A stretch of 52,114 nt of DNA from a virus: positions 1 to 52,114 of the IMG/VR virus record IMGVR_UViG_3300002460_000033, one strand, 5' to 3'. The position numbers were made by a program, and so were the translations under genes. Of this stretch, positions 2,530 to 32,856 are shown in pieces (within the stretch, counting starts at the first letter, position 1; each line of letters starts with the position of its first letter). The notes beneath the pieces were generated by a model. The model ran no database searches. It was given only the letters and a program-made list of their open reading frames with translations, and was not told where the DNA came from.

Positions 2530-2841
2530 ATGAACCCATATAAAATAGATAAAATACCAATAAACAATAGAAGTCTTGATAAAAGATACGCCTTGAATGA
2601 CGATAGAAGAGATCAGATAAAAAATCTAAAAGGAAAAGCACGGGTAAAAGAGATTGCAATTTTGTTTGGTGTTTCGGAAAGTACAGTAAAAAGAATTTTT
2701 AATCCAGACAAAAAAAGAAAATCAAACTGGAAAAAATACTATAACAAAGAGAAAAGAAGAGGGTATATGAAAAAGTATAGAGATCATAAGAACAAGCTAT
2801 TTAAACAAGGATTATTAAAATCAGTTGACAATGGGAGTTGA
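2530..2841 (+). CDS. Helix-turn-helix DNA-binding protein
   Basis: 103 residues, strongly basic. Residues about 38-58 read as a helix-turn-helix (VKEIAILFGVSESTVKRIF), followed by a lysine/arginine-rich tail. It resembles the HTH part of homing-endonuclease or transposase-type regulators. Its end overlaps the -35 box of the next promoter, so it may govern the RNA block behind it. Confidence 0.65.
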   Translation: MNPYKIDKIPINNRSLDKRYALNDDRRDQIKNLKGKARVKEIAILFGVSESTVKRIFNPDKKRKSNWKKYYNKEKRRGYMKKYRDHKNKLFKQGLLKSVDNGS

Positions 2842-2853
2842 TTGTGATATAAT
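2825..2853 (+). promoter_or_regulatory. Promoter of a structured-RNA block
   Basis: TTGACA (2825-2830), 17 bases, TATAAT (2848-2853). About 340 bases without a gene follow, holding three folded RNAs. Confidence 0.8.
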
Positions 2854-2882
2854 GTAGACAGGATAGAAAAAAGCACTTTAAA

Positions 2883-2996
2883 ATTAAATTTTTGAAAGTT
2901 GGGGAAGAGCTTGGACAACAGCTAGCGCAAAGTTGAGATAGTCAATTGCGACACCCTCAAACATTTAGGCTCTTTTCCAACTTTTAGAAATTTAAT
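2883..2996 (+). ncRNA. Structured RNA A, AGCAC-flanked
   Basis: Closing stem ATTAAATTT with AAATTTAAT (9 bp), a TTG/TAG internal loop, then a 16-bp stem (AAAGTTGGGGAAGAGC with its partner, two G-U pairs). The apical part has a CGCAA/TTGCG hairpin enclosing TTGA/TCAA. AGCACTTTAAA stands directly before and AGCACTTTTAA directly after. No open frame. The long two-part closing stem recalls Y RNAs, but no Ro-binding sequence can be confirmed by eye. Confidence 0.6.
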
Positions 2997-3015
2997 AGCA
3001 CTTTTAAAAATCAGA

Positions 3016-3124
3016 GCTGGTGAATGAATAAAAGAGTCATTTAATGGTAGAGCTCAGAACAAAGTAGGTTTAAGCTAAAACAACTAACAAGTTGCAACCA
3101 AAACGGGAGATCGCACTACCAGCC
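3016..3124 (+). ncRNA. Structured RNA B, tRNA-like outline
   Basis: Ends pair as GCTGGTG with TACCAGC like an acceptor stem. Inside are hairpins AATGA/TCATT, a TAGCT-type stem and CAACT/AGTTG. A TAATGGTAGAGC stretch looks like a D-arm, but there is no TTC T-loop and no credible anticodon arm. Flanked by AGCACTTTTAA and AGCACTAAAAG. A tRNA-shaped RNA or degenerate tRNA. Confidence 0.45.
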
Positions 3125-3129
3125 AGCAC

Positions 3130-3180
3130 TAAAAGTAGGGATAGGTTATAAAATGCGTATCCCTACCTTTAGAAAGTTTA
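3130..3180 (+). ncRNA. Structured RNA C, single hairpin
   Basis: TAGGGATA pairs with TATCCCTA, extended by AAAG/CTTT with one bulge, around a 14-base loop. Bounded by AGCAC on both sides (3125 and 3184). No T-run, so not a clear terminator. Confidence 0.5.
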
Positions 3181-3215
3181 GGTAGCACAAAATACTCTTG
3201 ACAATGAGTGGGTAG

Positions 3216-3611
3216 GTGGATATGTTTACCTATATGGTAGACATAATTAAAAGAAGAGCTAGAGATAAAAAAAGATATGCTAATCCAGAATGGAAAAGGA
3301 AAAAATTAGCTTATCTCAAAGCTCACAGACAAACACCTAGAGGTAAATATTTAAGTTATATCAAAGGAGCAAAAGAAAGAAAGTTAAAATTTGAATTAAC
3401 CTTTGAAAATTATCTTTTTATTACCTCTCAACCCTGCTATTACTGCGGAGCACAAGAAAAAATAGGAATAGATAGAATGAATAATTCAATAGGATATATT
3501 CTATCAAACAGCACTTCTTGTTGCCCCACGTGTAATTATATGAAAAAAGCTATAAACAAAGATCAATTTATAGCTCACTGTCAAAAAATTATTCAAACGC
3601 TACACGCCTAG
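3216..3611 (+). CDS. HNH endonuclease (homing type)
   Basis: 131 residues. Basic N-terminus (AHRQTPRGKY) then CYYCG, GIDRMNN (the central D/N strand), and CCPTCN with a terminal H: the zinc-stabilised beta-beta-alpha-metal nuclease. Free-standing HNH genes of this type cut phage DNA and drive their own spread. It sits just after the RNA block. Several starts are possible near 3216. Confidence 0.85.
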   Translation: MDMFTYMVDIIKRRARDKKRYANPEWKRKKLAYLKAHRQTPRGKYLSYIKGAKERKLKFELTFENYLFITSQPCYYCGAQEKIGIDRMNNSIGYILSNSTSCCPTCNYMKKAINKDQFIAHCQKIIQTLHA

Positions 3612-3646
3612 ACTTTCGATTTATAATTTATAGTTAATAGTAAACC

Positions 3647-3742
3647 ATGAAAAAAAGACAATGTTTTAGTTGTGGAAAATATAAAAAAATAAAATCTGAT
3701 TTTTGTAATGTATGTAGAAAAAGAATAAAATCAGATAATTAA
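3647..3742 (+). CDS. 31-residue zinc-knuckle peptide
   Basis: MKKRQCFSCGKYKKIKSDFC-type peptide with two CxxC pairs, very basic; too short for most gene callers. No strong ribosome binding site, so translation is uncertain. Confidence 0.4.
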   Translation: MKKRQCFSCGKYKKIKSDFCNVCRKRIKSDN

Positions 3743-3760
3743 AAGTTTAACTAAATTTTT

Positions 3761-4234
3761 ATGGAAACATTTAAAATCAACAGAAACATCAGGATTGAAG
3801 CAGAATATTATGAAACCCGTAATTCTTGGGGACATAAAGCCTACTTATACGTTAAAAATCATCTCGTAGGCCAGAATAGGGTCAGATACTACAATCGAAC
3901 TTGGGAAAGATACACCTACCAGAGTATTATGCAAAATTTGGTAGAAAAAACACCATATTTAACAAAATACCAGAAAAGAATTTGCAAAAAGTTTTTGGAA
4001 AGTGGTAAAAGAGTCGAGAAAGATTTACAGCCATTAAAGACAACCGCCTTTGTTGCCAGTCTTGGTGATATATTTGGTGATATATTTGGAACTAATAAAA
4101 AAGAAAGTAATGACTGGAAAACCAGAATATTAAAAGCTGGGGTTTCAGGAATAGATATTCCAGATGATTGGGAAACACTCTCGGAAGCTGAAAAGGAAAA
4201 AAGACTAAATGGTGCTATTCAGGTTTTACAATAA
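3761..4234 (+). CDS. Unknown protein
   Basis: 157 residues. The first 80 residues are basic and aromatic; a short exact tandem (GDIFGDIFG) near residue 108 matches a repeated 12-base stretch in the DNA. The C-terminus (GIDIPDDWETLSEAEKEKRL) is an acidic helix. No family recognised. Confidence 0.6.
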   Translation: METFKINRNIRIEAEYYETRNSWGHKAYLYVKNHLVGQNRVRYYNRTWERYTYQSIMQNLVEKTPYLTKYQKRICKKFLESGKRVEKDLQPLKTTAFVASLGDIFGDIFGTNKKESNDWKTRILKAGVSGIDIPDDWETLSEAEKEKRLNGAIQVLQ

Positions 4235-4255
4235 TGAATATAAAATTTAGAAAAA

Positions 4256-4528
4256 ATGAATACTACCCTAGATAAAATTATAGAAGAAAGAAAGGAAGAT
4301 TTAAAAGAAGAAATAGAAAGAAAACTTCCTAAATTTAAAAGAATGATAAAGATTAACGCCGATAATATCATATTCCATCAAGACGCTTGGGCGGGGGATT
4401 ACCAATTTGAAGAATATATACTATTGGGAAAAGTAATAAAATATATTGGATTAACGGGAAAAACTATTACTATTATTGGTAAAAATGAAGAAACTTTGAG
4501 TAAAAAGACCGATAAGAAAATAGAGTAG
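4256..4528 (+). CDS. Unknown small protein
   Basis: 90 residues, charged N-terminal helix then a beta-like segment. No motif recognised; it follows the previous gene in the same direction and ends in TAG. Confidence 0.55.
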   Translation: MNTTLDKIIEERKEDLKEEIERKLPKFKRMIKINADNIIFHQDAWAGDYQFEEYILLGKVIKYIGLTGKTITIIGKNEETLSKKTDKKIE

Positions 4529-20609: not shown

Positions 20610-20858
20610 ATGGTAGACGTAGAACCAACTGGAGAAATAATTGTTACCTTAAACTCAAGCGAAAAACATTATGCTTATGATAGGTTAAGTGTTACATACG
20701 AATCAACAGATAAAGAAATATTAGATGCAGTTTCACCAGTATTACTTGAAGAAGAAGGTTTTGATGTAGAAAATGCAGATGAAACCTTTACCGTTAAAAG
20801 AGTAGAAGATTCAAAAAATATTTATATTTTTCCCAAAAGCGTTGCAGGGCTTTCCTAA
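20610..20858 (+). CDS. Small protein, possible beta-grasp (ubiquitin-like) fold
   Basis: 82 residues: two strands (EIIVTLNSS, RLSVTYES), a helix (KEILDAVSPVLLEEEGFD) and later strands ending NIYIFPKSVAG. This beta-beta-alpha-beta order and a terminal PKSVAG-type tail recall MoaD/ThiS-like proteins, but there is no final GG. Transcribed alone from its own leaderless promoter. Fold proposed from pattern only. Confidence 0.5.
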   Translation: MVDVEPTGEIIVTLNSSEKHYAYDRLSVTYESTDKEILDAVSPVLLEEEGFDVENADETFTVKRVEDSKNIYIFPKSVAGLS

Positions 20859-21108: not shown

Positions 21109-21258
21109 GCCGAAGTGGTGTAATGGAAAACACACAACTCTTTTTAAGTTGCAAAACTCATAATAAATAACACTTACATGACTAGTCATGTCGCAGTTAC
21201 TTATTTACAAGCATCATCTCATAAATGATAAATCTAGGTTCGATTCCTAGCTTCGGCA
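21109..21258 (+). tRNA. tRNA-Met(CAT) with about 78-base insertion
   Basis: 5' part: acceptor GCCGAAG, D-arm GTGT/ACAC. 3' part: anticodon arm ATCAT/ATGAT with loop CTCATAA, T-arm CTAGG/CCTAG with TTCGATT, acceptor CTTCGGC. Between position 26 and the anticodon stem lies 21135-21212. The insertion has a decoy anticodon-like hairpin (CAACT/AGTTG) and then the shared core: helix AATAAATAAC/GTTACTTATT, internal loop ACTT/CGCA, hairpin ACATGAC/GTCATGT, ending TACAAGC. Confidence 0.7.
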
Positions 21259-21406: not shown

Positions 21407-21545
21407 GCCAGAGTAGCTCAAAGGTAGAGCATACTGTTCTAAAGTAGTTTCGCCTTGCGTAATTTATTACGCCGATTGAAGTTACTCACAAGCAATTTTC
21501 ACTGCAAATGAAAAGGCGTCAGTTCGATTCTGACCTCTGGCTCCA
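21407..21545 (+). tRNA. tRNA-Cys(GCA) with about 65-base insertion
   Basis: Acceptor GCCAGAG/CTCTGGC, D-arm GCTC/GAGC with GG, anticodon arm TTTCA/TGAAA with loop CTGCAAA, T-arm GTCAG/CTGAC with TTCGATT, U73 (Cys identity) and CCA encoded. Inserted at 21432-21495: TACT/AGTA decoy hairpin, helix AGTAGTTTC/GAAGTTACT, internal loop GCCTT/CGATT, hairpin GCGTAAT/ATTACGC, ending CACAAGC. A second, uninterrupted tRNA-Cys lies at 37451. Confidence 0.72.
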
Positions 21546-22536: not shown

Positions 22537-24108
22537 ATGACAGTCTTGGCAAAAGAAAGTTTACCTTTCCTATCATCTGAGGATCGACTAAGCGCTTATT
22601 CAATAATTCTTGAAGGTTGTTCTCACATCTACTCAAAAAATAAACTCCAACAAGACAAGGCTCTAAAAATTCTTGAACTTTTAATCCCATTAACTAAAAA
22701 TGACCCTTACTTTCTAGCTCATTTTACATCCTACGCATTAACTAAATCAAAATCAAAAGACCTTCACGTCTTCTTAACTTATGTTTCGGCTCTCTCTTCA
22801 GCTGACGGCACACCATTCTCTCATGGCTCAAAATATAAGAAACCAAATTTAAGATATATTTCAGCCGCCGCCCTTCACAGATTAGACCCAAAACTTGCGA
22901 ATCGAGTGATGGAACTGGCAAGCATGAAATTTAGCATTACAGGGTACTTAAATGAAGCCCGACACTTTCCAACGACACTTCGTACCTCTTTTGAGAAATA
23001 CCTCAAATATAGGGAGTTAAACCTCGAAATTATGAAGGGAATAAAGAAAGCTGGATTAGGGAATACAATTAAGATACTCTATAAGGCATTACATAAAGGA
23101 CCAACTGAAGATGTTGCTAAAATACTCCGCTGGCAGCAAAAGAATAAAAAAATTAAATTTGATAAACCTCTTTTTGATTTTAAGGGAATGACTGATGAAG
23201 ATATTGCTAGAAAAATTCAAAAAGAAAAACTTCCAGTCTTAGGGGTTTTGGGTGCTTTACCCAGAACCGTTTCTCCAGTAATTGCGGTCGCTCTCCTTGA
23301 ACAAGCGACTGGAAATCAGACTGTTATTCTACGCAAAACATTTGAAGACGCGGGAGTTTTGAAAGATAAGGAAGTTTTCAAATTATTTGAAGAAAAGATA
23401 AAAACCGCAAAAACCGCTCTAGATAGAGTTGAAATAATATCTCAAAACGCATCAGAAGAAGTTAAAAGGGTAATGGTTTCGGCGCGATCCGATTCAAGAA
23501 AGAAAGAGATGAAAGGTCTTGGAAAAATTTATGTACATATTGACGATTCTGGATCAATGCAAGCGGCAAGAGAATTTGCAATTGAGAGGGGAGCAATTTT
23601 AGCCGAGTGTGTAAATGATCCTAAAAATAACTTTGGATGGGGTATTTTTTCAGGTCAAGGTATACCCCTAGATCTTCCTCAAGAATTTGTTAAGGATGCG
23701 TTCAAAGCTGTATTATTTGGGGTACGTGGAGGAGGATCGACTGATTGTTTTGCTTTATATCCCGAAGCGAGAAAGTTTGGAGCAAGTGTTGATATTTTTG
23801 TTTCAGACCAACAGCATACAGATGGAGATTTAGAATATAAAATAAAACACTTCCATAGTCAAAACCCAAATATTCCAAAACCAAGGGTTTGTGCAATAGT
23901 AGACTTTGGCGGTGGCCAACGTGGAACTCTTAAATTAGCTTATGAATCAAATAATATTCCAGTTGCCCTTCTTAATCCAGATAAATTAGTTGAATCGGCA
24001 TTAGTAGTTGATGCGGTAAAAGCTGTAATTCAGGGTCCAATAGTTGTGATTGATGAAATTATGAATACTGAACTTTTACGATTACCAGATTATTATTACA
24101 CCCTATAA
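22537..24108 (+). CDS. rsr: Ro60 / TROVE-domain RNA-binding protein
   Basis: 523 residues. Residues about 1-340 are the helical-repeat TROVE ring (DPYFLAHFTSYALTKSKSKD, YISAAALHRLDP) that threads RNA ends and binds Y RNAs on its outer face. Residues about 345-520 are a von Willebrand A domain with the metal site D-D-S-G-S (IDDSGSM) and GGGSTD. Bacterial Rsr works with Y RNAs and PNPase in RNA decay and rRNA maturation. Its position behind the tRNA-like RNAs suggests they are ligands (inference). Confidence 0.93.
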   Translation: MTVLAKESLPFLSSEDRLSAYSIILEGCSHIYSKNKLQQDKALKILELLIPLTKNDPYFLAHFTSYALTKSKSKDLHVFLTYVSALSSADGTPFSHGSKYKKPNLRYISAAALHRLDPKLANRVMELASMKFSITGYLNEARHFPTTLRTSFEKYLKYRELNLEIMKGIKKAGLGNTIKILYKALHKGPTEDVAKILRWQQKNKKIKFDKPLFDFKGMTDEDIARKIQKEKLPVLGVLGALPRTVSPVIAVALLEQATGNQTVILRKTFEDAGVLKDKEVFKLFEEKIKTAKTALDRVEIISQNASEEVKRVMVSARSDSRKKEMKGLGKIYVHIDDSGSMQAAREFAIERGAILAECVNDPKNNFGWGIFSGQGIPLDLPQEFVKDAFKAVLFGVRGGGSTDCFALYPEARKFGASVDIFVSDQQHTDGDLEYKIKHFHSQNPNIPKPRVCAIVDFGGGQRGTLKLAYESNNIPVALLNPDKLVESALVVDAVKAVIQGPIVVIDEIMNTELLRLPDYYYTL

Positions 24109-24139: not shown

Positions 24140-24712
24140 ATGAGATATGTATTGACGGTTCTTGGAGGTTTTTTATTAATTGGTTTAATTTTCTTCTCTT
24201 GGATTACAGGAACATATAATGGATTAGTAACTCAAAGAACTGAGTTCCAAACTCAACAAGGACAAGTTGAAGCACAACTTCAAAGACGTTTTGACTTGGT
24301 TCCAAATTTGGTTGGGGCAGTAAAGGGAGCGATGGCGCAAGAACAAAAAGTATTTAAAGATATTGCTGACGCTAGAACTCATTATGCAGGAACTCCAGCT
24401 GGGACTCCTGAAAAAATAGAAGCTACCAATCAATTTGAAGGAGCTCTTTCAAGATTGTTGGTAATTATGGAAAATTATCCACAATTAAAGTCAATTGATA
24501 CAGTTCAAGCTTTAATGACTCAACTTGAGGGAACTGAAAACAGAATCAGTGTGGCAAGACAAAGATATAACGAAGCTGTCCAGCCATATAATAATTCAGT
24601 TCAAATGTTTCCAGGCAATATAATTGCTGGAATGTTGGGCTTTAAATATCAACCTTTTTATAAAGGTCAAGCGGGATCAGAATTTGCGCCCAGAGTTGAT
24701 TTAACAAAATAA
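24140..24712 (+). CDS. lemA: LemA family membrane protein
   Basis: 190 residues. N-terminal membrane helix (residues 5-25), then the LemA helical bundle with its diagnostic Q-x-EAQLQRRFDLVPNLV-type segment and YPQLKS. Family members are membrane anchored with a helical domain; function poorly known. First of three genes (LemA, TPM, SPFH) often found together in bacteria, here in one phage operon. Confidence 0.92.
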   Translation: MRYVLTVLGGFLLIGLIFFSWITGTYNGLVTQRTEFQTQQGQVEAQLQRRFDLVPNLVGAVKGAMAQEQKVFKDIADARTHYAGTPAGTPEKIEATNQFEGALSRLLVIMENYPQLKSIDTVQALMTQLEGTENRISVARQRYNEAVQPYNNSVQMFPGNIIAGMLGFKYQPFYKGQAGSEFAPRVDLTK

Positions 24713-24713
24713 T

Positions 24714-25469
24714 ATGAAGAAAATTTTAGGATTAGTCTTAGGACTCTTTTTATTCGCGGGAGTAGTTCAGGCAATTAATTATCTAGACTATACAGGATAT
24801 GTTAATGATTTTGCTAAAGTTTTAAGCAAAGATTTTGTTGAAAAACAGAACTTAAAGTTAAAGGAATTTGACGAAAAAACAACCAACCAAATTGCGGTTG
24901 TTACCGTTGAAACCACTTCCCCCGAATCAATTGAAGAATATTCAATTCATTTAGCTGATAAATGGAAGCCAGGACAAAAGGGAAAAGATAATGGAATAAT
25001 TTTTTTGACAGCAACAAAAGATCGAGAAATGAGAATTGAGGTTGGGCGGGGGCTTGAGGGAGATTTGACTGATTTAGAGTCAAAACAAATATTAGAGAAT
25101 GTAGTTAAATTAGAGTACAAACAAGGGAATTGGGAAGCTGGAATAGATAAAGGCGTCAACGCCATAATGATACAAATCAGTCCAGAAGTTGGAGAAAAAA
25201 TAGCAACTATTTCGGCAAGCGAAGCAGATAATATAGATGGTTCTGGATCAGCTGTTGTTGTTACTCTTATTCTAATAGCTCTTATTTTCATTATTATTAT
25301 TGTGGCAGCTTCCCCCTATACACCAATTGGAGGATAGGGAACTTGGGGAATAACTAGTCCCTATCGTTCAACAGGTGGTGGGTTTTTTAGTACTGGTAAC
25401 TTAAGCTCTAGTAGTACAAGTTTTGGCGGTGGATCATTCTCGGGAGGAGGCGCCAGTAGCAAATTTTAA
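24714..25469 (+). CDS. TPM-domain (YgcG-like) protein with in-frame TAG
   Basis: Signal peptide (MKKILGLVLGLFLFAGVVQA), then a TPM domain (NQIAVVTVETT, KWKPGQKGKDNGIIFLTATKD, MRIEVGRGLEG) and a membrane helix (VVVTLILIALIFIIIIVAAS). The frame meets TAG at 25335-25337, then continues for 43 codons to TAA at 25467. That tail (FGGGSFSGGGASSKF) is the usual Gly/Ser-rich YgcG ending, so it belongs to the gene. Either the TAG is read through, or it is a recent mutation leaving a 207-residue product. Confidence 0.85.
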
Positions 25470-25470
25470 T

Positions 25471-25608
25471 ATGAGAGCAGTAGAAGGAATTGTTTTTGGA
25501 ATATTTCTAGGAATAGCTATGGCAAGCTTAGTCTATTTATTTGCAACCTCTTTAATTGAGTACGGAAAACATTTAAAGAAGAAAAGAGGGGGTGAAAATC
25601 ATGGATAA
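25471..25608 (+). CDS. Small membrane protein
   Basis: 45 residues from ATG 25471, one base after the TPM frame's TAA. One membrane helix (IVFGIFLGIAMASLVYLFA) and a basic tail. The close spacing suggests translation really reaches the TAA, supporting read-through of the upstream TAG. Confidence 0.6.
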   Translation: MRAVEGIVFGIFLGIAMASLVYLFATSLIEYGKHLKKKRGGENHG

Positions 25609-26416
25609 TTTAGAACCAGGATTTAAGGTAGCTATTTGGGGATTTGGATTATTGGTTGTTTTTATAATTGGTCTAATGCTTTTACCCTTCACCATTATTG
25701 GTGCGGGAGAAAGAGGCGTAACTTTAAAATTAGGACAGGTACAAACTAATGTTCTAAATGAAGGAATGCACTTTAGAACGCCCTTTGTTGATGATATTAA
25801 AAAAATTAATGTAAAAACCCGAACAACCAAAATTGAGGGAGTCGCGGGTTCTTCAGATTCTCAGGTAGTTACATTCACAGCTCAGGTAAACTGGAGAATG
25901 AATGCTAATAATGTTGCAAAAACCTACCAGAGTTTGGGAGATGAAAGGGCGGTTGAAGAAAATTATATAGTAACAAAAGGCCCTGATGCAATAAAAGAGG
26001 CAGTTTCAAAAACAACTGCTGTTTTATTTCAACAAAATCGTGAAAAAGTTCGAAACCTTGCTATTGCTAACTTGAAAAAAAGAATGGGAAATACAGCTTC
26101 GGTTGAAGATATTTCCTTTACTAATATTGATTTTTCTAAGGAATTTAATGAGGCAATAGAGGCTAAGGTTACCGCCGAACAAGAGGCGCAGGCTCAAAAA
26201 AATAGATTGGAATCTATAGAATATCAAGCACAGCAAAAAGTTACAACAGCTCAAGCTGAGGCTACTGCTATTAAGATAAAGAATGAAGCTTTAGCTCTAA
26301 ATCCAGCACTTATTGAGTATGAAAAAGCTCTTGCATTAAAAATTAATGCAGAGAAGTTTCCGATTGTACCTCATACGGTACTTGGTGGAGCAGTTCCACT
26401 TGTAAATTTACCATAA
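25601..26416 (+). CDS. SPFH / prohibitin-like membrane protein
   Basis: 271 residues from ATG 25601 behind GAGGGGGTGA. Membrane helix (residues 8-30), then an SPFH domain (GERGVTLKLGQVQTNVLNEG, RTPFVDDIKKINVKTRTTK) and a long Ala/Glu-rich coiled coil. Builds ring-shaped membrane scaffolds; in bacteria often tied to FtsH protease control, and a T4 or host parallel is lysogeny control by HflK/C. Role here unknown. Confidence 0.93.
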   Translation: MDNLEPGFKVAIWGFGLLVVFIIGLMLLPFTIIGAGERGVTLKLGQVQTNVLNEGMHFRTPFVDDIKKINVKTRTTKIEGVAGSSDSQVVTFTAQVNWRMNANNVAKTYQSLGDERAVEENYIVTKGPDAIKEAVSKTTAVLFQQNREKVRNLAIANLKKRMGNTASVEDISFTNIDFSKEFNEAIEAKVTAEQEAQAQKNRLESIEYQAQQKVTTAQAEATAIKIKNEALALNPALIEYEKALALKINAEKFPIVPHTVLGGAVPLVNLP

Positions 26417-26463: not shown

Positions 26464-27306
26464 ATGATAGATTTGGAACGATTTGTAAAAGAGAAGGAAG
26501 TAGTCGTTCCAATAGTTGAAGGTTGGGGGCAATATGACGGACGAAAAATATATGCACCAAACATCGAGGCTAGTTACTATAGGGCAACTCTTAGAAACTC
26601 TGCACTGTTACATGGACGCGCCAGCCCGCTCGAAGTACAGAAAACTCTTACTGGAAGAGGCGGGCATAGATTCAAGATTTTTGCAATCGGAGAAGAGGGG
26701 GTTGCTACCAACTTTGACACATTTCTTAGGAAGGGTTTTGGGGAATCGGTAAAAGTTAATTTTTTAAATGTTCGGCTTTTTGAGGTTGTAGAAATAGTTT
26801 TATGGGAAGACGGACGCTTTTATTTTTATGACACAATCTTACCCAAGAATAGAGCCGTTATACAACAAGTTAAACAGTGTTTTGAGTCCGACCAAGAACT
26901 TACCAACATTAAGGGAATTTCTCCAGAGCTCCGCTACTTTTTTTTACTCGCAAGTTTACAACGTCAAGGATTTAGAGCAGCAGAAGAAATGGAGAAGTAT
27001 AAGCTTTCCGAACTTGAACGGGAAAAGCGCGTCGCCGAATTTAACGCAAGTTTTCCAGGGAGGCTTAAAAATACTGTCACAAGGGCGGGCGGGAAGTTTA
27101 TCAGGTATAGTAGGTTTGGTAATGGATACCTTGTTGAATGGAAATTGGGACATCAACTTATCAAATCAACAATAAAAGACAATATGAGAATTATAAATGC
27201 AGGATTCTGTTTATCGGGAGATGATAAAAAACATACCATTGCATCTGTTGTAAATTTAGCAAAATTATTTAGGCGTGATGCGCCATTATATATTACAAGA
27301 GAATGA
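26464..27306 (+). CDS. Unknown protein leading the ubiquitin-like operon
   Basis: 280 residues. I do not recognise it. First half alternates beta strands (VKVNFLNVRLFEVVEIVLWE, GRFYFYDTI), second half has a helix (RQGFRAAEEMEKYKLSELER) and more strands; no membrane segment. Its GC-richer codons (ACGGACGAA, GCGCCAGCC) stand out from neighbours, hinting at a separate origin. ATGA-coupled to the next gene, so likely part of the conjugation operon. Confidence 0.6.
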   Translation: MIDLERFVKEKEVVVPIVEGWGQYDGRKIYAPNIEASYYRATLRNSALLHGRASPLEVQKTLTGRGGHRFKIFAIGEEGVATNFDTFLRKGFGESVKVNFLNVRLFEVVEIVLWEDGRFYFYDTILPKNRAVIQQVKQCFESDQELTNIKGISPELRYFFLLASLQRQGFRAAEEMEKYKLSELEREKRVAEFNASFPGRLKNTVTRAGGKFIRYSRFGNGYLVEWKLGHQLIKSTIKDNMRIINAGFCLSGDDKKHTIASVVNLAKLFRRDAPLYITRE

Positions 27307-27590
27307 AACTTTTATTATCAGCTTTAATTTTAGGAAGCTTTGCGGCTTTTACCTATTGGAGTTTCACGGTAATAAAAAGAACACTATTTTTTCTTGAATT
27401 TCAACTATGTCGTTTTTATGATTGGTTAAAAATTACACTTCCCAAAATTCCTAAAAATTTAAGAATGATTTGGTATAACAAATTTAGATTACCAAATCTG
27501 AAAGAAAGAAGTAGAAAAGGAGATGCTTGGGCAATAGCGGAAAGATTAAAACACGTAAAAGTTAACAGGTGGGAAGAACCAAAAGACTAA
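27303..27590 (+). CDS. Small membrane-anchored protein
   Basis: 95 residues: N-terminal membrane helix (residues 3-20) and a basic cytoplasmic tail (RNLKERSRKGD-like). ATGA overlap upstream and one-base gap downstream place it firmly in the operon; it could tether the conjugation machinery to the membrane. Confidence 0.6.
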   Translation: MKLLLSALILGSFAAFTYWSFTVIKRTLFFLEFQLCRFYDWLKITLPKIPKNLRMIWYNKFRLPNLKERSRKGDAWAIAERLKHVKVNRWEEPKD

Positions 27591-27591
27591 T

Positions 27592-28053
27592 ATGAACCAT
27601 AAATTTAATAATGAGGTCGGAATTATTTTATCAGAGGAATGGGACCCGTTGGTATTTATTGAAGGAAACCCTGGTTCGGTTGATTTTCCATCAGAATTTA
27701 TTTTAGATGCTCATAAAAGAAGAAATGGATTTGTTCATGTTTTAATGCACACACACCCGCCAGGAATGACTGGATTAAGTTTTAGGGATGAATTGACTTT
27801 AAAAACTTTAGCGTTCACCCTATATCCTTTTCCAATCAGAATGGGAACTTTAACTTTAACTGGAAAAGAAACCTTTATTGAAACAACTTATTTAGCACTT
27901 TTAGAACCAAAAGAACTCTGGGAAAAAGGAAAAATAAGAAAGTTCAGTATTGAAAAAGAACACGTTTATGATTTTGTAGAACCGATTGGATTTTGGAGAA
28001 AAAAAGCCATTGAAATGAGCTACAAAAAGTTTGACAAAATTAGTGAATTATGA
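27592..28053 (+). CDS. JAB/JAMM metalloprotease 1 (deubiquitinase-like)
   Basis: 153 residues. JAMM zinc motif H53-x-H55-x7-S63-x2-D66 (HTHPPGMTGLSFRDE), with an upstream Glu in EEWDPLVFIEGN. Proteases of this family free the GG end of ubiquitin-like proteins or cut their conjugates. Short, a single catalytic domain. Next gene is E1-like, the classic pairing. Confidence 0.88.
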   Translation: MNHKFNNEVGIILSEEWDPLVFIEGNPGSVDFPSEFILDAHKRRNGFVHVLMHTHPPGMTGLSFRDELTLKTLAFTLYPFPIRMGTLTLTGKETFIETTYLALLEPKELWEKGKIRKFSIEKEHVYDFVEPIGFWRKKAIEMSYKKFDKISEL

Positions 28054-28058
28054 TATAA
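28031..28058 (+). promoter_or_regulatory. Internal promoter of the conjugation operon
   Basis: TTGACA (28031-28036), 16 bases, TATAAT (28053-28058), inside the JAMM gene end; serves the E1, Ubl and E2-like genes. Confidence 0.8.
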
Positions 28059-28075
28059 TATATATATCATAAGAT

Positions 28076-28744
28076 ATGAACGATAATAAGGTTTTTTCTC
28101 GCCAACTCGATTTAGTAAAACCAGATGAATTAGACTTTCCAATCTTAATAATTGGAGCTGGTGGAATAGGAAGTTGGACCACTTTAGCTCTTGCTAAAAT
28201 GGGATGTCATAATATTACGGTTGTTGATTTTGATAAAGTAGAAGATCACAATATTCCCTCTCAAATTTATACTTTTAAATACAAAGGGGAATTTAAAGTT
28301 AATGCTTTAAAAGATATAGTGAAAGAACTCACTTCAGTAGAAATAATCCCAGTCTCCCAAAAATTTCAGGATTGGTACACTCCAGATAAACAGTTTAATG
28401 CAATTATTAGTGGGGTGGATTCAGTGGAATCCCGCCGAAAAATCTGGAAGAAAATTTCAACAGATATTCCTCTTAAATTTGACGTCTACTTTGACGGAAG
28501 AATGGCTGGGGAATTTTTAAGAATTATAACTATAAGTCCGCTAAACGCTTATTCAATCAACTCCTATCAGAAAAATTTATTTGCTGATAAGCCAGTAGAC
28601 GACACTCCTTGTACCGCCCGTTCTGTAGTTTACAACACCTTCCTTTGCGGTGGTCTAATGGCAAGTTTCATTAAAAAATATGCTAAAAAAGAATTTGTAA
28701 AAGCAAACATTAATTTTGATATTACAAATACTCAAATATTATGA
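28076..28744 (+). CDS. E1-like activating enzyme 1 (ThiF family)
   Basis: 222 residues, one Rossmann adenylation domain: G27-x-G29-G-I-G32 (GAGGIGSW), acidic adenine-binding strand (VVDFDKVEDHNIPSQIY), and a candidate catalytic cysteine C179 in PCTARS. Would adenylate the C-terminal glycine of the Ubl and carry it as thioester. No CxxC zinc pairs of MoeB type. Ends in an ATGA overlap with the Ubl frame. Confidence 0.9.
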   Translation: MNDNKVFSRQLDLVKPDELDFPILIIGAGGIGSWTTLALAKMGCHNITVVDFDKVEDHNIPSQIYTFKYKGEFKVNALKDIVKELTSVEIIPVSQKFQDWYTPDKQFNAIISGVDSVESRRKIWKKISTDIPLKFDVYFDGRMAGEFLRIITISPLNAYSINSYQKNLFADKPVDDTPCTARSVVYNTFLCGGLMASFIKKYAKKEFVKANINFDITNTQIL

Positions 28745-28794
28745 ATTTGTTAAACATTTTTAATAAAAAAAAGAAGAAGGGGGGTGAAAAAGAT

Positions 28795-29040
28795 ATGGGA
28801 AAAAAGAACAAAAAGGGAGATGCTGATATAACCGTTAAGGTCTGTCGAGCTCCAGGAAAAGTAGTTGAAATAGCTCTAAACGGTGGAAGAACTGTAGACG
28901 ATGCTTTAAAAGCCGCAGGACTTGTAAAAAAAGAATCTGAAGTTATACAGGTTAATAGTGAAGAGGTGGACGACATATATTACGAATTGGAAGATGGAGA
29001 CCGAGTAGTTTTAGCTAAAAACATTCAAGGGGGTAGATAA
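28795..29040 (+). CDS. Ubiquitin-like protein ending in GGR
   Basis: 81 residues from ATG 28795, which follows AAGGGGGGTGA; an upstream in-frame ATG at 28741 is less likely. Beta-grasp pattern: ITVKVCRAPGKVVEIALNGG, helix TVDDALKAAGL, final strand DRVVLAKNIQGGR. The chain ends GG plus one Arg, so one residue must be trimmed to expose GG, a job for a JAMM protease. MoaD/ThiS size, single domain. Confidence 0.88.
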   Translation: MGKKNKKGDADITVKVCRAPGKVVEIALNGGRTVDDALKAAGLVKKESEVIQVNSEEVDDIYYELEDGDRVVLAKNIQGGR

Positions 29041-29042
29041 AC

Positions 29043-30752
29043 ATGGCTGCATGGTTTAATGGAAATATTGGGGTCCCTGAAGATAGTAGTGTTACTGTAT
29101 ATAATACGTCGGACGGGACCTATATCCATAACAAATATACTGTTGAGAATGCTATTGATTATACTATGGTAAGTAATTATATTTCCACTGAAGGATTACA
29201 ACAATTAGCCCAACAGCAAGTAATGAATGCTCCGTTGGGAAGTTTAGCTTCACCTTCTCCTTTTCAGCGAGAAGTAAAACAAATGTCTTATGGAGTAAAA
29301 CCTGAAAAGAAAGTTAAAAAGAAAAAGGTTGGAGTGTCTATTGCAATTGCTGATTTTGCCCAGGAAAAAGCAGAAAATCTGAAAGCCAAATTAAGTCTTG
29401 AAAAATTAACTCTCCAGACAAATAAAAAACTAATCGAGGATAATAAAAAAAAGATGAGAGTCATGGAAGATAAGGTTGTTAATCTTGAACAAAAATATAA
29501 TTCTTTAACTCAGGTCAAACGGTCTGAATTAGTTTCAAAATATAGAAAAATTATTACTCTTTTGAAAAAGTCTCCTGAAATTGAAAAGTTTGAGACAGAC
29601 ATTGATAAAAGAGTAATTATTACAACTAAACCACTATTTGTCCAAAAGACAACATGGGACAAGCCGCGGGAAATAGGTAGATTTCAAATTAGAATAGATT
29701 TTTCTAAGACCGAAATAAGTGGGGGAGGAGTTCAAATATTAAATATAACCCAGCGTTACCAAAGCTACGACAACCCGACCATTAATAATACGAGTCCTTG
29801 TTGGGGAAATATTGGACCCGATATAACAAATGAATTTCAAACCCAAGATTTATATGAATTAGTTTTAGATTTAATTGATTACATCAGAAGTCCTAATGAG
29901 TCTTCTGGATTTTTAGGAAAAAACGGAGATAAAACACTGGGGTGGGAGCAATTTTTTGAAGGAGCAACCAAACAACCAGAAAATTTTTCCTTTTATAAAT
30001 ATGACCAGCTACAAAAATCAAAAAATGTTAAAGGGGTGGTTGTTGGGGGTAGTACGTTGGAGTGGACATTAGATAACCCAACCGAAAGATTTGCTCAAGA
30101 ATACGGGCAATATGTGAGATTTACAAATGAAGTCGGAATGACAACAAATGTTGCGGTTAGCCCACAAGCCGCGGGAGTTTTACAAGAAGCCGTAGAACAT
30201 CGGCGTGAAATTCATAATGATGGTGAATCAAGAGATATGCACGAAGAAATGGCGCGCCGATTAAGGGAAAGAAATATTAGTGAAGATAATTATCAAGTAA
30301 TGAGGGTTTTTAGGGATTTTGGGATGACTGAGCGCGCCGCTTATTATTTTATGGGTTTGTTAAATGAAGAACCAATAAGAAGCGGGGAAGTGGTAACACG
30401 TTGTGAGGTACGAGCGTCAGGTGGACAAATTTCAGTTTTTTTTCATATAGAAAACTCACGACAGATACAAAATATGACAGTAACTACCGCACCCCAACCA
30501 GATGACCAAATAAGAGTATTACGTTATTTTGCAAATGAAAGAGATTTTAAACCAAGATTTTTAGACCGATTACGACACGCGGGAGTAATTCAATTTTTAA
30601 TGCCAAATAGATTATCGACTCACACACATCAAACAACCGAAGCGAGAGAAACATCTATTCGTGAACAAACAGTAAGACAAACAAGGGAAACGTTAGAATC
30701 ACTCAGTCTGAATAGTATAAATAACAGAATTTTACCACCTTACGAAGGATAA
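29043..30752 (+). CDS. Large protein with E2-like segment
   Basis: 569 residues. Residues about 95-170 are coiled coil (lysine/glutamate heptads). Residues about 215-290 resemble an E2 fold: strands RFQIRIDFSKTEISGGGVQIL, then NPTINNTSPCWGN with candidate catalytic Cys253, then helix DLYELVLDLIDYIRSPNES. This Cys-W-G plus helix layout fits prokaryotic E2-like proteins of JAMM/E1 operons. The last 280 residues are unassigned (MARRLRERNISEDNYQVMR). ATG two bases after the Ubl stop. Confidence 0.7.
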   Translation: MAAWFNGNIGVPEDSSVTVYNTSDGTYIHNKYTVENAIDYTMVSNYISTEGLQQLAQQQVMNAPLGSLASPSPFQREVKQMSYGVKPEKKVKKKKVGVSIAIADFAQEKAENLKAKLSLEKLTLQTNKKLIEDNKKKMRVMEDKVVNLEQKYNSLTQVKRSELVSKYRKIITLLKKSPEIEKFETDIDKRVIITTKPLFVQKTTWDKPREIGRFQIRIDFSKTEISGGGVQILNITQRYQSYDNPTINNTSPCWGNIGPDITNEFQTQDLYELVLDLIDYIRSPNESSGFLGKNGDKTLGWEQFFEGATKQPENFSFYKYDQLQKSKNVKGVVVGGSTLEWTLDNPTERFAQEYGQYVRFTNEVGMTTNVAVSPQAAGVLQEAVEHRREIHNDGESRDMHEEMARRLRERNISEDNYQVMRVFRDFGMTERAAYYFMGLLNEEPIRSGEVVTRCEVRASGGQISVFFHIENSRQIQNMTVTTAPQPDDQIRVLRYFANERDFKPRFLDRLRHAGVIQFLMPNRLSTHTHQTTEARETSIREQTVRQTRETLESLSLNSINNRILPPYEG

Positions 30753-30754
30753 AT

Positions 30755-31402
30755 ATGAAAATTATATTACCAGTCAAGGGTTACCAAAAATTCCGTTCCT
30801 ACATCAACGGAACACAATACGAAATTAGTGGATTGGGAAAAATAAGTCGGGTTGACGACGAATTTACTATAGAAGATGTCAAAATATTTAAACAATATGT
30901 TTCGTCGGGTGAAACAGTTCTTGATAGAAGAGAATTAGGAAAATTTTATGATGAGACGATACAAAAGAATGAGGATTTATCAAAATGGAAACTCTGGTGG
31001 CATTCCCATGCCGACTTCAACGTTTTTTATAGCGGGACGGATGAAGATACTATAAAAGATTTTGATAACGAAACACATATTGATAACTGGATGCTTTCAA
31101 TTGTCTCCAACCATAAAGCCGAGATGTTGGCACGGCTGGATATTTTTTATCCTTTAAGATGCACTATTTCAGAAATAGATTGGGAAATTTCTTTTGAAGA
31201 TAGGGAAATTAAATTAAATGCTTTAGATGAAATTATAGAAAAACTTATTCCAAGGGAAGGATTTAGACAACAAAAAAAGAGTGAAATAGATTTTAGTAAG
31301 AGAAAAGTTCCTTTATTTCCCTTAACAAAAACAGCAGTTAATATTGGAGAAGTTATAGATCCGAATACTGGATTGCCATTTGTAGATTTTACGGATTTAT
31401 GA
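30755..31402 (+). CDS. JAB/JAMM metalloprotease 2
   Basis: 215 residues. H83-x-H85-x7-S93-x2-D96 (HSHADFNVFYSGTDED), with E23 in YEISGLG as the upstream catalytic Glu: a complete JAMM site. Distinct in sequence from the first JAMM protein, so processing and deconjugation may be split. C-terminus ends in an acidic/Phe tail. Confidence 0.9.
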   Translation: MKIILPVKGYQKFRSYINGTQYEISGLGKISRVDDEFTIEDVKIFKQYVSSGETVLDRRELGKFYDETIQKNEDLSKWKLWWHSHADFNVFYSGTDEDTIKDFDNETHIDNWMLSIVSNHKAEMLARLDIFYPLRCTISEIDWEISFEDREIKLNALDEIIEKLIPREGFRQQKKSEIDFSKRKVPLFPLTKTAVNIGEVIDPNTGLPFVDFTDL

Positions 31403-31626
31403 AAACTTTAGGTTATAGCAGAATGAGATTTGTAGGCAAAAATAGTTTAGGTTATATATATGGAAAAGAATATGCTTTAGAATTTTTACATCCTAATTTT
31501 TATGAAAGAAATGTTTTAGGATTTTCTTTTTATATTAAAGATATGAATGGCAACGGTTTGTTGTGCCCCTATTCAAGTGTTGTTACTTTTTTAATGAATT
31601 GGGAAGCAACCAAATCAGCAATATGA
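31399..31626 (+). CDS. Small operon protein of unknown function
   Basis: 75 residues, aromatic and glycine rich (YGKEYALEFLHPNFYERNVL). ATGA-coupled to the JAMM gene. Its beta-rich character and position suggest a small accessory, but no family is recognised. Confidence 0.55.
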   Translation: MKTLGYSRMRFVGKNSLGYIYGKEYALEFLHPNFYERNVLGFSFYIKDMNGNGLLCPYSSVVTFLMNWEATKSAI

Positions 31627-31637
31627 AAATCTTAAAC

Positions 31638-31666
31638 TTGACACAATATAAAAAAAGCTTTATAAT
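31638..31666 (+). promoter_or_regulatory. Promoter of the NUMOD-HNH gene, leaderless
   Basis: TTGACA (31638-31643), 17 bases, TATAAT (31661-31666); ATG at 31673. Confidence 0.8.
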
Positions 31667-31672
31667 GGAGCT

Positions 31673-32311
31673 ATGGGAAGAAAAAAAGGAAGTATTCCCT
31701 GGAATAAGGGAATTAAATATACTAAAAAACTTAAAAAAAGACTAAATCTAGAAGGATTAAAAAAGGGAAGGGGATTATTTAAAGGTAAAAAAAATTGGTG
31801 GGGTTTAGGAAGGGATAACCCAATGAATAGAAAGGAAATTAAAAAGAAAGTTCATTCCAACCCCAATGTAAAAGCAACTTATTTTAAAAAGGGACATATA
31901 CCTTGGAATAAGGGTAAAAAAGGTATTCATTTTAGTCCAAACACAGAATTTAAAGAAGGAATAACAACGGGTAAAAATCATCCCAGTTGGAAAGGTGGTA
32001 TCACCCCAGAAAATTTAAGAATAAGAGGAACTAAAAAATTTATTGAATGGAGGAGAAGGGTTTTTGAGAGGGATGATTATACTTGTCAGATGTGTAATAA
32101 AAAAGGTGGAAAAATACACGCAAATCATATTAGAAAATTTAGTGATTATCCAAAATTAAGATTTAGTGTGGATAATGGAATTACTCTTTGTAAATTTTGT
32201 CATTTAAAAATTATAACTTGGAAAGAAGAAAAATGGGAAAAATTATTTTTTATATTATTAAAACAACAAAATAAACTATGCGAATCTTGGTCGCAGGAAT
32301 TGGTGCGCTAG
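31673..32311 (+). CDS. NUMOD3-HNH homing endonuclease
   Basis: 212 residues. Repeated IPWNKG motifs (residues about 8, 75) are NUMOD3 DNA-binding units; residues 125-190 are HNH: CQMCNKKGG, HANHIRKFSD, GITLCKFCH. Has its own promoter and splits the conjugation operon; its end overlaps the next E1 gene by 34 bases in another frame. A late invader. Confidence 0.92.
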   Translation: MGRKKGSIPWNKGIKYTKKLKKRLNLEGLKKGRGLFKGKKNWWGLGRDNPMNRKEIKKKVHSNPNVKATYFKKGHIPWNKGKKGIHFSPNTEFKEGITTGKNHPSWKGGITPENLRIRGTKKFIEWRRRVFERDDYTCQMCNKKGGKIHANHIRKFSDYPKLRFSVDNGITLCKFCHLKIITWKEEKWEKLFFILLKQQNKLCESWSQELVR

Positions 32312-32856
32312 GCAGTAACTTAGTTCGAAGTCTTATTCCTGACCTGAAGGGAGAACATAAAATTACCATATTGGATAAAGACAAAGTTGAAGAAAGAAAT
32401 ATAACCGCAGGAACTCAAGCTTACACTCGCGACCAGATTGGAATCCCTAAAGTTGAAGCGCTCCAATTTAATATTTATAAGTGGTATGACAGAGAAATTG
32501 AAATTTTTAATAATGATATTAGAAAATTTTTAGTGGGGCGTCCTGGGCAGGATTTAATTATAGATTGTTTTGATAATAGTGAGGCACGAGCAATATTACA
32601 AAGAAATTATCTTGATTTTGTCCCCCTACTCCATCTCGGTTTTTCTAATAATTATACTTTTACCATAGAATGGGCGGAAAACTATAAAACCCCCTCTGAT
32701 TTGACATCAGGCTTCGATATTTGCACCCTTCCAGGGGCAGCCGCATTTGTTTCAAGTGTGGCTGCGCTTGGCAGTTTGGTGGCCGAAGAATTTATTCTTC
32801 ATGGTAAAAAATTAGAAATTACTGGGGGGAAGTATATTCATTCATTAATAAAATGA
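32278..32856 (+). CDS. E1-like enzyme 2 (ThiF family)
   Basis: 192 residues. Rossmann start G7-I-G9-A-L-G12, ITILDKDKVEERNITAGTQ, and C149 in FDICTLPGAA as candidate catalytic cysteine. Shorter than a normal E1 and divergent from the first one. Could be a dedicated partner for a second Ubl or the second half of a heterodimer, as in eukaryotic E1s. Confidence 0.85.
   Translation: MRILVAGIGALGSNLVRSLIPDLKGEHKITILDKDKVEERNITAGTQAYTRDQIGIPKVEALQFNIYKWYDREIEIFNNDIRKFLVGRPGQDLIIDCFDNSEARAILQRNYLDFVPLLHLGFSNNYTFTIEWAENYKTPSDLTSGFDICTLPGAAAFVSSVAALGSLVAEEFILHGKKLEITGGKYIHSLIK

Follow-up and report, generated by a model that had tools for sequence, protein, structure and literature searches.

Most of what is known of ubiquitin-like conjugation in prokaryotes concerns host defence. 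In the Bil system (BilABCD) a ubiquitin-like protein (Ubl), a conjugating enzyme (E2), a JAMM metalloprotease and an activating enzyme (E1) are encoded by separate genes, and the Bub system comprises the same four functions, with BubA as the Ubl, BubB as the E2 and a fused JAMM-E1 protein, BubCD. Another described arrangement is the ParB-related, ThiF-related cassette (PRTRC) system, in which an E1, a JAB protease and a Ubl are found on mobile elements. Here, we describe a computational analysis of a 52,114-nucleotide stretch of viral DNA (the window), positions 1 to 52,114 of IMG/VR record IMGVR_UViG_3300002460_000033, that contains two sets of Ubl-pathway genes, which we call module A and module B. 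We assign a probability of about 0.7 to the reading that this phage encodes two parallel ubiquitin-like conjugation pathways that work by the relay proposed below, module B being linked to RNA. The principal genes are as follows.

Module A:
28076..28744 (+): E1a, a ThiF/E1-like adenylating enzyme of 222 residues (Pfam ThiF, 1.2e-20)
28741..29040 (+): Ubl-A, a beta-grasp modifier of 99 residues ending in QGGR
29043..30752 (+): E2-like conjugating enzyme of 569 residues (predicted), with C253 in PCWGN
30755..31402 (+): JAMM2 metalloprotease of 215 residues, motif HSHADFNVFYSGTD (PADLOC JAB, 1.1e-4)

Module B:
20610..20858 (+): Ubl-B, 82 residues, ending in PKSVAG-LS (a glycine followed by a two-residue tail)
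22537..24108 (+): Ro60/TROVE-vWA-like RNA-binding protein of 523 residues, assigned by family profile
26464..27306 (+): candidate E2 of 280 residues, with an OB-like (oligonucleotide-binding) domain at 63-145, a coiled coil and a C-terminal alpha-4beta-C249-alpha domain
27592..28053 (+): JAMM1 metalloprotease of 153 residues, HTHPPGMTGLSFRD (HxH-x7-SxxD), assigned by motif and family alignment
32278..32856 (+): E1b, a short E1-like enzyme of 192 residues (Pfam ThiF, 2.9e-13)

The phage locus resembles the described systems without coinciding with any of them. Like Bil, it encodes the Ubl, E2, JAMM and E1 in separate genes; unlike Bil, the set is the phage's own and its E2 possesses a long coiled coil. 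PADLOC matched the window proteins to partial E1-E2 and JAB models only, a result that bears on the Bil-specific families. The four functions of Bub are all represented, and the E1a family profile matches BubCD, whereas the phage E1 and JAMM are separate genes rather than a fusion and the phage E2 has no sequence match to a solved protein. An E1 domain and a JAMM protease are shared with Cap2 and Cap3 of type II cyclic-oligonucleotide-based antiphage signalling systems (CBASS), of which Cap2 is matched by the E1a profile; in contrast, there is no E2-E1 fusion (the 222-residue E1a and the 569-residue E2 are separate) and no CD-NTase was recognised in the operon. PRTRC has the E1, JAB, Ubl and mobile-element setting in common with the phage, whereas E1a and E1b score only 32.4 and 24.2 bits on PRTRC_ThiF, for which the cut-off is 144.75, and a search for PRTRC_B in related phages was empty. 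The scores of E1a and E1b on all ThiF/MoeB cofactor-enzyme equivalog models are likewise far below cut-off. Module B also recalls the Ro60/TROVE ribonucleoproteins that occur with RtcB-type RNA repair, in that a Ro60-like TROVE-vWA protein lies near transfer RNAs (tRNAs) and an RtcB-like gene is likewise present in some loci; we know of no Ubl, E1 or JAMM associated with Ro60. Iyer, Burroughs and Aravind (2006) described bacterial Ub/JAB/E1/E2 operons, 6c-6e, and in phages only the TAPI Ubl with a JAB protease in tail operons (PMC1779556). The present modules share the gene logic of operons 6c-6e, including E2s that lack the classical histidine, but are carried by phages, the earlier operons having been described in bacteria. 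Bil acts in host defence by interfering with the assembly of phages (Hoer 2024, cited in PMC12660748). Of the 224 jumbo phages covered by one review, a small subset has TROVE; in the text searched, JAB, Ub-like and E1-like do not appear as terms (PMC7824862). A literature search, outside which many subscription papers lay, found no published account of a phage or crAss-like Ubl system of either module, and both phage modules are likely to be novel.

The catalytic residues of module A are conserved throughout its phage family. In the family alignment of E1a, R9, the DFD motif (D51, D53), N59, Q63, K74, D115 and C179 are invariant, so that both the ATP-site residues and the catalytic cysteine of an E1 are present, and its profile matches UBA5 (5e-17), MoeB (6.5e-13), BubCD (1.5e-10) and Cap2 (~2e-9) in the PDB. 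Ubl-A matches Pfam Ub-Mut7C at 1.7e-4, slightly short of the Pfam cut-off, and its family profile finds MoaD (3e-5) and SAMP2 (3.1e-5) as well as ThiS and TtuB, in agreement with a beta-grasp protein. Its C terminus reads GG-R, giving the C-terminal glycine of a Ubl, and those of its relatives read G-N, G-A, G-ACAS or have longer tails. JAMM2 keeps E23, H83, H85, S93 and D96 invariant, the full E, HxH, S, D set of a JAMM protease, and its profile matches an Rpn11-like protein (8.8e-8) and P. furiosus JAMM1 (1.4e-6). Two further arrangements of the Ubl were observed: one locus (L015, 12207-12887) encodes a single protein with three Ubl-like repeats, the second and third ending in KVQGA, a poly-Ubl precursor in a phage; and in four loci of crAss-like and Flavobacterium phages (L003-L006) the gene upstream of the E2-like gene encodes a Ubl-looking N-terminal part, after which come KSG(G) and a long C-terminal extension.

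The remaining component is the 569-residue protein, in which the earlier note had pointed to C253 as a candidate E2 cysteine. An AlphaFold2 model built from 17 sequences is confident over residues ~100-320 (core pLDDT about 90 or more) and poorly predicted in its C-terminal region; it consists of a long helix (95-175), a beta-meander, C253 and then directly, after the flap, helix 255-266. The predicted E2 fold spans residues 157-316, with the cysteine following the beta-meander as in catalytic E2s. When the model was compared by VIA-align, all 50 of the 50 matches listed were E2-fold enzymes, alone or complexed, with Z scores of 7.1-8.4 over ~130 residues; such scores are not decisive alone. 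The equivalent of C253 is invariant in 20 aligned proteins, in which the commonest surrounding motif is PH[IV]...C.G, with the proline at -8 and the glycine at +2 nearly invariant. Because the match list is uniform and the cysteine is invariant, we take the two together to indicate that the protein is a predicted E2 with C253 at the catalytic place, and the structural outcome that would have counted against the earlier note, a model with no E2 fold around C253, did not arise. Other searches gave little: Foldseek returned weak E-values (the best, 0.09, to an E2), a BFVD structure search returned no named E2, Pfam and PDB sequence searches with the family returned nothing meaningful, and neither a direct scan of viral contigs nor tblastn in phages found a relative of the window protein itself. 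In four loci the E2-like protein is followed by several CxxC pairs (L007, 11673-13727; L015, 14031-16442; L013, 6736-8019; L037, 7636-8316), which are perhaps built-in zinc-finger E3 parts.

Module A recurs widely. Using tblastn, E1a was found in 82 phage records, including crAss-like and Flavobacterium phages, in which the upstream neighbour carries the JAMM motif HSHxxMxxFFSGTD and the gene before it an E2-like C-x-G motif; when E1 sequences were used to scan viral contigs, further loci (L007-L042) emerged, and the module is present in crAss-like, Flavobacterium and uncultured phages. Leaving aside contigs truncated at the E1, all 24 module A loci have a JAMM gene near the E1, and the E2 profile matches 19 of these 24; most of the 19 were used in building the profile, and one left out of the building, L026, scores 2e-42. 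In the nearest relative, L010, the genes for E1b, E1a, Ubl, E2 and JAMM2 are consecutive, and module A is present twice in each of L007 and L015, where cysteines resembling those of zinc fingers follow the second E2. Module A lies among genes for replication or recombination: in other phages its neighbours include Pol A, DnaB, primase, SbcCD-like genes and exonucleases, and in the window a Cas4-type exonuclease and RusA. In one clade of five loci (L022, L025, L029, L030 and L031) reverse transcriptase genes are found close by (6 neighbours match RVT_1), which are possibly diversity-generating retroelements. A scan of genome contigs with E1a yielded six ThiF-family genes, which had no module A JAMM or E2 profile match nearby and appeared by eye to be housekeeping MoeB/ThiF-like genes.

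Module B comprises five genes on one strand, encoding the Ro60/TROVE-vWA protein, the 280-residue protein, a JAMM, Ubl-B and E1b, as defined by neighbour clustering and profile searches. Scanning viral contigs for the 280-residue family gave 41 loci on contigs of up to 619 kb, many of them from huge phages, whereas none of 84,980 bacterial and archaeal genomes yielded a confirmed relative in a pattern scan, and tblastn in phages found none. Across these 41 loci the Ro60-like gene is present, in the corresponding position, in 39, the 280-residue and JAMM genes in 41 each, Ubl-B in 40 and E1b in 36, and 36/41 have all five. The same sets of genes recur in dozens of unrelated contigs and are therefore not chance associations. 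E1b lacks the N-terminal helix, but its K58, D99 and C149 are conserved in the alignment. The window Ubl-B was identified by phmmer of the Ubl of locus L039 against the window open reading frames (E 1.5e-12). In 44 Ubl-B sequences conservation is exact through an RPKxxFG-type motif and is followed by variable, unrelated tails of 0 to >15 residues; the C-terminal glycine is found in these sequences and in the window copy. Such tails, together with the glycine and short tail of the module A Ubls, are as expected of JAMM-trimmed precursors. The profile of the Ro60-like family matches RO60 (2.7e-6) and TROVE-domain proteins (1.8e-5), so that both TROVE and vWA parts are represented; Pfam reports only vWA in its relatives and no TROVE match, making the TROVE half the weaker assignment.

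The 280-residue protein is a plausible E2 for module B. C249 is invariant in 42/42 sequences, and the AlphaFold2 model (mean pLDDT 83) has an OB-like domain resembling the OB folds of aIF5A, RNase R, S17 and aIF1A (VIA Z up to 6.1) and a C-terminal domain whose matches include the RWD domains of Ctf19/Mcm21 and Knl1 (Z 4-4.8). The possible role as an E2 follows from the fact that RWD domains have the E2 fold. The earlier note had looked to this protein, too, for such a fold: the predicted structure offers the weak RWD likeness, and a profile comparison with the module A E2 was not significant.

That the earlier note's six genes, JAMM1 to E1b, form one coupled operon on the + strand held up in position, strand, spacing and family matches; adjoining genes overlap by 4 nt or are separated by 1-22 nt, with an HNH insertion as the single exception. 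So did the assignment of a Ubl-conjugation gene set to a phage, since virion and tail protein families lie at 52-57 kb of the 59,442-base record. The limits given to the operon, 27592-32856, proved too narrow, as the 280-residue protein, the Ro60-like protein and the second Ubl also belong to the set, and the description of its E1 and JAMM as duplicated was not sustained. In a maximum-likelihood tree, 27 module A E1s and 33 module B E1s lie on opposite sides of a 100/100 branch. Module B is also found unaccompanied by module A, in L038, L039, L040, L044, Rctr197k, a 595-kb phage and many huge phages; a single duplicated system is ruled out by these two observations. In the window module A is nested inside module B, with JAMM1 on one side and E1b on the other.

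The surroundings of module B are rich in tRNAs, which are present in 37/41 loci, with up to 40 in 16 kb. In 19 phages, not chosen by tRNA count, the module B loci hold 219/556 tRNAs in 5.7% of the sequence, an approximate 6.9-fold enrichment (locus counts being from ARAGORN and record counts from Infernal) with 16/19 above expectation. RtcB-like RNA ligase genes are near module B in 4 loci and a transfer-messenger RNA (tmRNA) in two (L061 and L079). The window phage has at least 33 tRNAs, some of them between Ubl-B and the Ro60-like gene, and one tmRNA (RF00023, 15224-15601 (-), 62.5 bits), which terminates an array of 26 tRNAs. Two Rfam tRNA matches at 21109-21258 and 21407-21542 (+), absent from the ARAGORN calls, span 150 and 136 nt, as if they contained insertions of ~65-80 nt. 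Rfam searches over eight module B loci listed tRNA, tRNA-Sec and tmRNA only, with no Y RNA among the matches listed.

The gene content, linkage, conserved catalytic residues, predicted module A E2 fold and tRNA clustering seen here would fit the following relay. JAMM2 would trim Ubl-A to its glycine; E1a would adenylate Ubl-A using ATP and then take it on C179; and C253 of the E2-fold protein would next receive Ubl-A and hand it on to an amine of the substrate, forming a bond that JAMM2 could also reverse. In module B, Ubl-B, E1b and JAMM1 would act in the corresponding steps, with the 280-residue protein, through C249, as the probable E2. The Ro60-like RNA-binding protein and the tRNA islands tie module B to RNA, so its likely role is to tag proteins that bind phage tRNA, damaged tRNA or other small RNAs, or else to control the Ro60 particle. 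A bolder possibility, less likely than not, is that module B is a phage-specific Ubl pathway built around a Ro60 particle for tRNA or small-RNA quality control, in which the OB-plus-RWD enzyme would transfer the Ubl onto proteins bound to RNA or onto RNA itself.

Several points weigh against two conjugation pathways of this kind. The chemistry of both modules is read from sequences and predicted folds. The HPH motif usual before the cysteine in relatives of the module A E2 reads NPT in the window (HPC in L010), and the window enzyme could be weak or diverged; when compared with the PDB by sequence, the E2 family profile found no E2. For module B, the RWD/E2 likeness of the 280-residue domain is weak (Z < 5), and the profile comparison of its C-terminal domain with the module A E2 core fell short of significance. 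Only position, size and a marginal profile match (P 0.012) join the window Ubl-B to the huge-phage Ubl-B family, with its RPKTPFG ends, and the link to tRNAs is one of neighbourhood.

We weighed other explanations, none of which we consider probable. The E1s might thiocarboxylate their Ubls, supplying sulfur for tRNA thiolation or a cofactor with protein conjugation secondary. TtuB, Urm1, ThiS and MoaD are sulfur carriers of this type, and the Ubl-A matches to MoaD, SAMP2, ThiS and TtuB, the top NCBIfam matches of E1a and E1b (ThiF/MoeB models, below cut-off) and the position of module B among tRNAs all lend this some colour. We nevertheless consider it unlikely: a sulfur carrier does not need the E2-fold enzyme with an invariant cysteine, and inspection by eye of the clustered module B neighbours revealed no sulfurtransferase, rhodanese or PP-loop thiolase. 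Equally doubtful is the proposal that module B is an RNA-repair island whose Ubl enzymes have lost conjugation and act as scaffolds, the 280-residue protein serving as an RWD protein that binds RNA instead of as an E2. The OB-like domain, weak RWD likeness, RtcB-like ligase in some loci and missing E1b helix are in keeping with it, whereas the JAMM motif, K58, D99 and C149 of E1b and C249 of the 280-residue protein are conserved family-wide, and the Ubl-B tail pattern implies processing.

The earlier note had also raised the possibility that the phage counters host conjugation. The phage enzymes would then sabotage Bil, Bub or type II CBASS, for instance with the JAMM stripping host conjugates and the E1 and E2 acting as decoys. 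Host systems of these kinds exist, and it is plausible that phages encode proteases directed at them; in Borg elements, many JAMM proteases are present that are proposed to counter host tagging (PMC12660748). A pure antagonist, however, has no need of its own Ubl and E2, both of which the phage encodes, nor does this proposal sit well with the recurrence of module B as a five-gene set or the retention of the module A catalytic residues; counter-defence is thus possible but not favoured, and we rate it slightly below the two preceding explanations. Least probable by far is the modification of the phage's own virion, which the earlier note had also suggested and in which structural proteins would be tagged during assembly: the gene set is in a phage and lambda-type tail operons pair the TAPI Ubl with a JAB protease (PMC1779556), but the neighbours of module A are of replication and recombination type (RusA and a Cas4-type exonuclease in the window; in other phages DnaB, Pol A and SbcCD-like genes) and those of module B are tRNAs, so that this suggestion finds no support.

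Other genes in and around the modules are listed below.

25592..26416 (+): SPFH/Band-7 protein adjoining module B (Pfam Band_7, 2e-26)
27303..27590 (+): membrane-like protein of 95 residues between the 280-residue protein and JAMM1, with a 4-nt overlap and a hydrophobic N terminus
31399..31626 (+): protein of 75 residues coupled to JAMM2
31673..32311 (+): HNH (homing-type) endonuclease between module A and E1b (phrog_8446, 2.1e-17)

The family of the 95-residue protein and relatives of the 75-residue protein were sought and none was found. The HNH endonuclease is an insertion and stands outside the mechanism; endonuclease-like (HNH/homing-type) genes interrupt module B at differing places, in L010 at 2346-2822 and 3368-4384 and in L044 at 255-1103. 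A Band-7 protein is beside module B in L044 too (2577-3353, by eye), and in the window LemA-like and TPM-like proteins (by eye) precede the Band-7 gene between the Ro60-like and 280-residue genes (24140-26416 (+)), a possible membrane-stress cluster.

In our reading, Ubl pathways can also belong to phages, here as a pair; the E1, Ubl and JAMM proteins look intact, and an E2 is predicted. The cultured Bacteroides phage DAC15 and Flavobacterium phage FpV4 contain relatives of module A, so that the proposed chemistry is testable at once. Finally, through module B the tRNA islands of giant phages are connected with both Ubl conjugation and Ro60, which may help to explain the large tRNA complements of these phages and the way in which they protect their tRNAs.

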